Of a stretch of 33,337 bases of DNA, positions 15,851 through 16,601 are shown piece after piece. A model generated the notes under the pieces. It was not told where the DNA came from. It worked only from the letters and a program-made list of their open reading frames with translations, and ran no database searches. The stretch spans positions 1 through 33,337 of the forward strand of contig JAPPPZ010000139.1 in NCBI GenBank assembly GCA_028817275.1, in the 5' to 3' direction. Numbering within the stretch: position 1 is the stretch's first letter; every line of letters starts with the position of its first letter. This DNA is from Gammaproteobacteria bacterium. GTDB taxonomy: Bacteria > Pseudomonadota > Gammaproteobacteria > Arenicellales > Spongiicolonaceae. The position numbers were made by a program, and so were the translations under genes.

Positions 15851-16008
15851 CGGCCGCGGTTTCCGCACTCAAATCACCGTTCCCGCACTGCAAGCCACCG
15901 GCCCCGCCCCTCAAACCCCATTCCGGCATCTGCAACCACCGTTTCCGCACTCCAGACCACCGTTTCCAGAGTCCCGTCCACCATTCCCTGGGTCCCGGCC
16001 ACGGTTGC
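15849..16008 (+). repeat. Imperfect 21-bp tandem repeat array (about 8 units)
   Basis: Beginning at the dctM stop, units follow at 15865, 15885, 15906, 15926, 15947, 15968 and 15989, each 20-21 bp, preceded by a partial unit. Most start GCACTC or a variant and end CCACCGTTTCC or a variant; the best matches are at 15926-15946 and 15947-15967. Unit sequence and length match the inverse-oriented array at 5563-5626. Spacers are absent, so it is a minisatellite-like array and not CRISPR. No gene is seen in it. It may act as a transcription/RNA processing boundary after the TRAP operon, but that is a guess. Confidence 0.75.
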
Positions 16009-16039
16009 AGACCATCGGGAAAGCAGGTACGCTCCCCAC

Positions 16040-16166
16040 CACGAAGAAACGCAAGGCCTCCGGCAATGCCGGGTGGCCTGCTCAATACAACACCCGGCAA
16101 AGAGCAGGAAGTCATGAGCCTGCTCCGGGAAATAAGCGGGAAAGTCACACCTTGTGTTTCTTCGTG
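16040..16166 (+). repeat. 127-bp element with 17-bp terminal inverted repeats and internal foldback (MITE-like or structured RNA)
   Basis: CACGAAGAAACGCAAGG (16040-16056) is complementary to CCTTGTGTTTCTTCGTG (16150-16166) at 16 of 17 positions, and the exception can pair as G-U in RNA. Inside, GCCGGGTG (16068-16075) pairs with CACCCGGC (16091-16098). GAGCAGG (16102-16108) can pair either with CCTGCTC at 16077-16083, making a pseudoknot with the first stem, or with CCTGCTC at 16119-16125, making a simple hairpin. A separate perfect inverted repeat, CCGGCGCC/GGCGCCGG, follows at 16172-16189. No ORF or target-site duplication is evident. It could be a miniature mobile element or the leader of the lipoprotein gene at 16215. 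Confidence 0.5.
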
Positions 16167-16214
16167 TCCGCCCGGCGCCTCGGCGCCGGCAGATTCACCA
16201 CACGGAGAAGCCAC

Positions 16215-16601
16215 ATGTTCAATCAAGCCAGGAAAATCATGGCAATCCTGACCACGGCTCTGCTGACGGGCGGGTGCGCCACCCTCACCGAAGACGCCAT
16301 GACCCCGGTCACGCTGACTTTCAGCAGCGGCGAAAACGGCAGTTGCAAACTGACCAACAAACGCGGCGCCTGGGAAACCCCGGTGCCGGCGACCGTTTCC
16401 ATTCGCAAATCAGACGACGCGCTGCTTTATGACTGCAAAACCGACGGCGGCAAAACCGCTTTCGGCTCCATTCCAAGCGAGATGGGCGGCAAAATTGTCG
16501 CCAGCGCGGTGTTTCTGGATTTCGGCATCACCGACGCCATCACCGACAAGCACCGCCGCTATCCGGCAAACTTCGTGATTGTCGTTCCGGCGGAAAAATA
16601 G
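16215..16601 (+). CDS. Small putative lipoprotein, uncharacterised
   Basis: This 128-residue protein has a basic N-terminus, a hydrophobic stretch and a cysteine at residue 21 in ALLTGGCATL. This is a lipoprotein-like signal, although the residue at -3 is threonine rather than the usual leucine. The mature part NGSCKLTNKRGAWETPVPATV followed by IRKSDDALLYDCK resembles a widespread uncharacterised proteobacterial lipoprotein pattern with two cysteines, a central tryptophan and a Pro-x-x-V segment. No enzymatic motif is seen. The ATG at 16215 is supported by GGAGAAG at 16204-16210. It stands alone between the foldable element and the convergent TRAP operon. Confidence 0.7.
   Translation: MFNQARKIMAILTTALLTGGCATLTEDAMTPVTLTFSSGENGSCKLTNKRGAWETPVPATVSIRKSDDALLYDCKTDGGKTAFGSIPSEMGGKIVASAVFLDFGITDAITDKHRRYPANFVIVVPAEK

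Follow-up and report, generated by a model that had tools for sequence, protein, structure and literature searches.

The element that begins at position 16040 of the window (the whole stretch of 33,337 nt analysed here, with all features on its + strand) is, judged from its sequence and its relatives, a structured leader RNA with a C4-like logic, forming a new branch beside sRNA-Xcc1. We consider it likely, if not beyond doubt, that it is the 5′ leader of a lipoprotein-gene messenger and works like a C4 antisense RNA. Computation recovered a family of such leaders with covarying stems, in which an arm pairs cognately with two segments, U at the 5′ end and D over the ribosome site, and which is linked to translation starts. 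According to this model, the family probably exerts translational control over genes of exported proteins. The initial annotation had left the choice between a MITE-like element and a structured RNA that precedes the lipoprotein gene and might act as a switch; the latter is supported by the copies, the covariation and a conserved alternative pairing.

All repeats described in that annotation are present. U (16040..16056), the 5′ arm of the outer stem P0, pairs with the arm (16150..16166), its 3′ strand, over 17 of 17 pairs when one G-U is counted, just as had been claimed. The interior holds the inverted repeat GCCGGGTG (16068-16075)/CACCCGGC (16091-16098), as well as GAGCAGG (16102-16108) with copies of CCTGCTC at 16077-16083 and 16119-16125, and a further inverted repeat, CCGGCGCC (16172-16179)/GGCGCCGG (16182-16189), follows the arm. 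The predicted fold of 16036-16240 reaches -80.1 kcal/mol, where shuffled sequences average -61.0 (z -4.24) and 0/200 of them were as good. The putatively controlled gene, an ORF at 16215..16601 with its start at 16215, encodes a 128-aa lipoprotein-like protein (MFNQARKIMAILTTALLTGGC...), for which no Pfam match was obtained at E 0.01. Its Shine-Dalgarno GGAGA (16204-16208) lies under segment D (16200..16216), assigned as the target of the arm from the arm x D test and the fold. A degenerate 21-nt tandem repeat (15859-16006) stands immediately upstream of the leader; repeats of this type recur 28 times in the own genome, counting that of the window, and were also seen before several other leader copies.

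A BLAST search with the window region returned six places in its own genome, the window included, and five in the sole other genome of the genus, and 0/39 further genomes matched. In the aligned copies the promoter region, the core, a GC hairpin, the ribosome site and the ATG are largely kept, and the arms of the outer stem differ. Two covariance models, R1 and R2, raised the count in the own genome to seven leader copies, each standing before a different gene. Model R1 matched 11/109 genomes of the order, among them G347 with eight copies, and 3/369 genomes of the class, the own one included. Model R2, which represents the core and was built from 71 sequences without any sRNA-Xcc1 sequence, found the same seven copies and matched 3/398 sampled genomes of the phylum, again including the own.

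A scan of genome contigs with a core pattern yielded at least 114 stretches. Among the matches listed, 107 places had enough flank, a P1 partner was present in 101 of these, and 96 also showed a U x arm energy below -15 kcal/mol; two Rhodothermales places, likewise among the matches listed, missed or barely missed this energy limit. The hosts among the matches listed comprise sponge and other Gammaproteobacteria, Novosphingobium, Nitrospirales, Gemmatimonadota, Latescibacteria and Limisphaerales, together with Acetobacteraceae (Gluconacetobacter, Komagataeibacter, Nguyenibacter and Novacetimonas). The leader was also seen on plasmids of Komagataeibacter and Gluconacetobacter (L171, L207-L210; 10/72,556 plasmid records), and two of these loci, L208 and L210, have no annotated same-strand gene directly behind the leader. 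The window query gave zero matches to the plasmid records, and the sole match on a viral contig (L206) was judged by eye from its sequence to be a chance match, so derivation of the window copy from a plasmid or a phage was rejected.

Other copies and covariation in the stems, the absence of which the initial annotation would have taken as refutation, were both found. Among the 11 near copies 98.0% of the cells pair, 41 cells are changed on both sides, and both-side changes occur in 10/12 pairs of P0; none of five covariation measures was reached by any of 500 shuffles, with the structures for these and the following counts chosen by reading the alignments. A MITE-like element that had lost its transposase would explain dispersed copies with inverted ends, several of them in one genome, and is nevertheless extremely improbable. 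Its inverted ends should be common to the copies, whereas the terminal arms vary freely yet remain complementary; the complementarity moreover extends beyond the element to the ribosome site, and promoter, ribosome site and ATG stand in register around the near copies. Because the changes at the ends are compensated between copies, this reading was rejected. We give next to no credence to a chance fold in GC-rich DNA either; short GC-rich palindromes are common and at least one of the pairings initially proposed is unconserved, but the z of -4.24 for the fold and the covariation, which 0/500 shuffles equalled in each of two alignments, argue against it.

The conserved core (16077..16140) comprises P2a (16077-16082/16135-16140), an internal loop in which CAATACAACA (16083-16092) faces AAATA (16130-16134), P2b (16093-16096/16126-16129) and P2c (16102-16108/16119-16125). 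It is flanked by P1, whose 5′ strand GCCGGGTGG (16068..16076) pairs with the 3′ strand CCGCCCGGC (16168..16176). From the matches listed, 79 non-redundant cores were obtained, of which 71, from several phyla, were aligned and eight omitted as misparsed or superfluous. Over the 71 cores, P1, P2a and P2b together have 97.2% paired cells and 11/17 pairs changed on both sides (0/500 shuffles), including 6/6 pairs of P2a and 2/3 of P2b. The internal loop AAUACAA/GAAUA is near-invariant over these cores, although AATAC and the last A were prescribed by the search pattern. As to the pairings proposed earlier for the interior, GAGCAGG does pair with the second CCTGCTC, as P2c, in 11/11 near copies, whereas the first CCTGCTC forms P2a together with 16135-16140. 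The 8-bp stem GCCGGGTG/CACCCGGC did not hold up over the family, with 58.0% of its cells paired and zero pairs changed on both sides; GCCGGGTG belongs instead to P1, with its partner at the distal 16168-16176.

The inverted repeat at 16172-16189 proved to be real and is conserved as an alternative to P1, overlapping its 3′ strand. An exact complement of the P1 3′ end occurs within the next 34 nt in 58/102 copies, compared with a shuffled mean of 6.7 and a maximum of 16 in 500 shuffles, and it covaries with the P1 3′ end (association of GGC/GCCGG versus GAC, p = 2.4e-5). Since the exact complement is common and changes together with the end of P1, P1 and the 16172..16189 hairpin, hereafter anti-P1, are taken to be mutually exclusive. 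The internal pairings originally described as mutually exclusive are therefore mostly other than the conserved ones; the conserved alternatives are pairing of the arm with U versus D, and formation of P1 versus the anti-P1 hairpin.

The complementarity of the arm to the ribosome site of the following gene was seen by eye and then tested. Duplex energies were computed for every arm with every D, and own pairs were compared with foreign pairs after double-centring. For 36 copies the own D was better by 3.47 kcal/mol (z -7.2, 0/10000), and for 56 non-redundant broad copies from the matches listed by 4.94 kcal/mol (z -11.2, 0/10000); reversed-D controls gave z -1.3 and z -1.6, respectively. The 25 farther copies give z -6.7, and among the 11 nearest copies alone the own D is not significantly better (z -1.1, 1477/10000). 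In the window, 16152-16166 of the arm pairs with 16200-16216 at -17.3 kcal/mol, for which its own site was the best of the 36 ribosome sites tested. U pairs with its own arm at z -23.8 (36 copies), and U x D pairing gave z 0.4 in the same copies. The broad-set value for U x arm, z -29.0, is biased since a U x arm energy below -15 kcal/mol was itself the condition for retaining a copy, a selection of which the broad arm x D test is free. As the arm pairs cognately with both D and U, U is similar to D, and either one can serve as the partner of the arm. Two loci with an unclear ORF (L067 and L068) were excluded from the 36-copy set, in which two arms, and the start codons at four loci, were placed manually. 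From the broad set L119, L108 and L095 (judged chance) and L114 (misparsed) were excluded, 19/92 copies without an ORF preceded by a ribosome site were removed, and then 17 near-duplicates. The two sets partly overlap, as L094, L128, L156, L158, L180 and L182, for example, come from the same genomes.

A probable promoter of the leader was placed at 16005..16033 (TTGCAG 16005-16010, 17 bp, TACGCT 16028-16033) by alignment to the better promoters of other copies (TTGACA-17-TATCTT). The window boxes are themselves weak, with the best pair matching 6/12 consensus positions and 98.5% of shuffles equal to it. A significant promoter was found in 24/36 family copies, with the -10 box ending a median of 35 nt before P1. 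In the window, transcription is expected to start near 16040. In the fold predicted for a transcript from U onward, P0 and the anti-P1 hairpin are formed and the ribosome site is largely free; from P1 onward, the arm is paired with the ribosome site. The predicted openness of the window Shine-Dalgarno is 0.56 with U, 0.01 without U and 0.01 with U shuffled. Across far copies it is 0.49 with and 0.34 without U (p 8.8e-5), and across broad copies from the matches listed 0.40 and 0.31 (p 6.6e-5). For the 11 near copies deletion of U had no significant effect on predicted openness (0.52 versus 0.46, p 0.58), and shuffling of U gave p 0.04 for predicted access.

A signal-peptide-like start was found in 28/35 downstream proteins of the order and class set and in 35/56 of the broad set drawn from the matches listed, compared with 33/282 control ORFs of at least 150 aa from the broad loci, the calls being made by a simple home-made rule and not by a trained predictor. 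Pfam assigned 23 families to the 35 downstream proteins, each in no more than three of them, including outer-membrane beta-barrels (3), OmpA_membrane (3), DNA methylases (2), MORN (2), BamE (1) and others. At two loci, L072 and L080, family leaders precede DNA methyltransferase genes and not exported-protein genes. A 33-aa fragment behind the L083 leader, in a genome of another family, is 79% identical to the product of the window gene (16215-16601), and the arms of the two leaders are quite different. Arm, U and D thus seem to change even where the gene is retained.

In the mechanism that we propose, the arm (16150-16166) would pair with D, in the same molecule or in another copy, covering the Shine-Dalgarno and keeping translation low. 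U (16040-16056), a mimic of D and the better partner, would capture the arm in the intact transcript and so leave the ribosome site open. Which pairing wins would be decided by the core (P1, P2 and the AAUACAA/GAAUA loop) together with the P1/anti-P1 alternative. Transcription from the putative promoter and the ON/OFF direction are presumed in this scheme, as is the notion that loss of U, for instance by cleavage 5′ of P1 as carried out by RNase P on C4, would turn the gene off.

The strong conservation of the internal loop, which a pure antisense model does not need, suggests a ligand or a protein. In a riboswitch-type leader, a small molecule at the AAUACAA/GAAUA loop would stabilise P1/P2 and shift the arm from one partner, U or the ribosome site, to the other, with arm, U and D as the expression platform. 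The computations would indeed credit the family with both a conserved core and a switching expression platform, as expected of a riboswitch, and sRNA-Xcc1 has the same core; the loop is nearly invariant over the 71 cores (in a search whose pattern demanded AATAC and the last A), the exclusion of P1 and anti-P1 is conserved, and the downstream genes belong to one class, that of exported proteins. We nonetheless regard a riboswitch as unlikely, given that these genes lack a pathway theme (23 Pfam families among 35 proteins, none in more than three), that the sRNA-Xcc1 branch precedes quite other genes (SymE 5/27, P22_AR_N 1/27 by Pfam), and that C4 has the same U-arm-D logic on a different core. 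Less likely still is a protein-dependent leader, whose core would bind an RNA-binding protein or ribonuclease signalling, for example, the state of the envelope to a regulon of exported proteins. It would suit the same gene class in distant hosts, the several copies per genome (seven in the own, eight in G347) and the promoter spacing common to the copies, but a universal host protein would not predict a distribution as patchy as 2/397 other sampled genomes of the phylum.

The C4-like leader is thus preferred, and we see about an even chance that it represents a large, unlisted, multi-phylum class of leaders combining an antisense strip, a ribosome-site decoy and a core that perhaps senses a ligand or protein, placed before exported-protein genes, with sRNA-Xcc1 as its mobile branch. 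sRNA-Xcc1 is reportedly described as trans-acting by Chen in 2011; if it is the mobile branch, that annotation would be incomplete and the RNA would be a self-targeting C4-like leader. C4 and sRNA-Xcc1, which are filed separately, would then be joined by a common working principle, and the present family would contribute a further branch, mostly chromosomal and found in little-studied symbionts, acetic acid bacteria, Nitrospirales and Gemmatimonadota, covered by no Rfam family at cut-off in the loci scanned. Because arm, U and D are rewritten at each locus yet remain matched, the evolution of cis antisense control becomes directly testable, and the near-invariant internal loop offers a target for ligand or protein discovery.

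Compared with known RNAs, no Rfam family reached its cut-off over the element in the window or in 10 related loci, and none except tRNAs did so in 18 broad loci. The only Rfam lead is sRNA-Xcc1 (RF02221), with a window score of 32.5 bits below the cut-off of 53; three near copies score 27.6-29.1 bits and the relative L123 40.7 bits. PMC2996969 presents it as an 88-nt sRNA, and PMC12444791 describes an sRNA that lies upstream of symE in cassettes of Xanthomonas; no link between this RNA and its own gene's ribosome site emerged from the portions of the literature covered, and Chen 2011 may say more. Integrons, transposons and plasmids are carriers of sRNA-Xcc1. The likeness lies in the common core GGC..GC..AAUACAAyACCCG...GGGGAAUA plus P1. 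Since model R2, built without sRNA-Xcc1, recovers 22/31 RF02221 loci at E ≤ 1, with E below 0.001 for 12, the cores are homologous. RF02221 matches occur in 19/274 genomes of the class and 1/60 relatives. An ORF with a ribosome site follows closely in 27/31 loci, and after removal of four of the 31 without a suitable start and one near-duplicate, 26 non-redundant loci gave z -8.0 for arm x D and z -9.9 for arm x U. Unlike the window family, sRNA-Xcc1 precedes SymE, antirepressor or unknown genes, with exported starts in 1/25, and many of its loci carry, by eye, a hairpin with a T run after it, placed between U and the core; U might accordingly end as a short decoy RNA of its own.

With C4 the window family shares its layout, namely U (a1, b1), a core with P1, the arm (a′, b′) and D (a2, b2) over the ribosome site. 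In both, the complementarity of the arm extends to a segment upstream of it and to the ribosome site behind it, and for seven C4 loci the own pairing was equalled by 2/5040 permutations for arm x D and 1/5040 for arm x U. According to PMC5320573, C4 has stems P1-P3, is cleaved by RNase P 5′ of P1 and carries the loops a′ and b′, the latter of which covers ribosome sites; Rfam lists its partner segments as c4-a1b1 (RF03163), 'a1, b1 targets of C4 antisense RNA'. The core, however, is different: C4 (RF01695) was not matched in the window or the related loci scanned, and model R2 found 0/7 C4 loci. The targets of the window family are chromosomal exported-protein genes, whereas those of C4 are phage immunity genes or the antirepressor operon, and in the window copy no hairpin resembling a terminator separates U from the core. 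One C4 locus (L218) precedes, by eye, a SymE-like gene, and C4- and sRNA-Xcc1-type leaders coexist in genomes G115, G136 and G150 (loci L213-L219). The RNA known upstream of C4, isrK (RF01394), gave sub-threshold matches at two C4 loci, where they cover the U region, and none in the window. Another Rfam family of similar name, c4-2 (RF02944; PMC11701678), was matched neither in the Rfam scans of the window nor in any of 274 genomes of the class. The window element, which reaches the cut-off of neither family, shares its core with sRNA-Xcc1 and, on the best reading of these comparisons, would work like C4.
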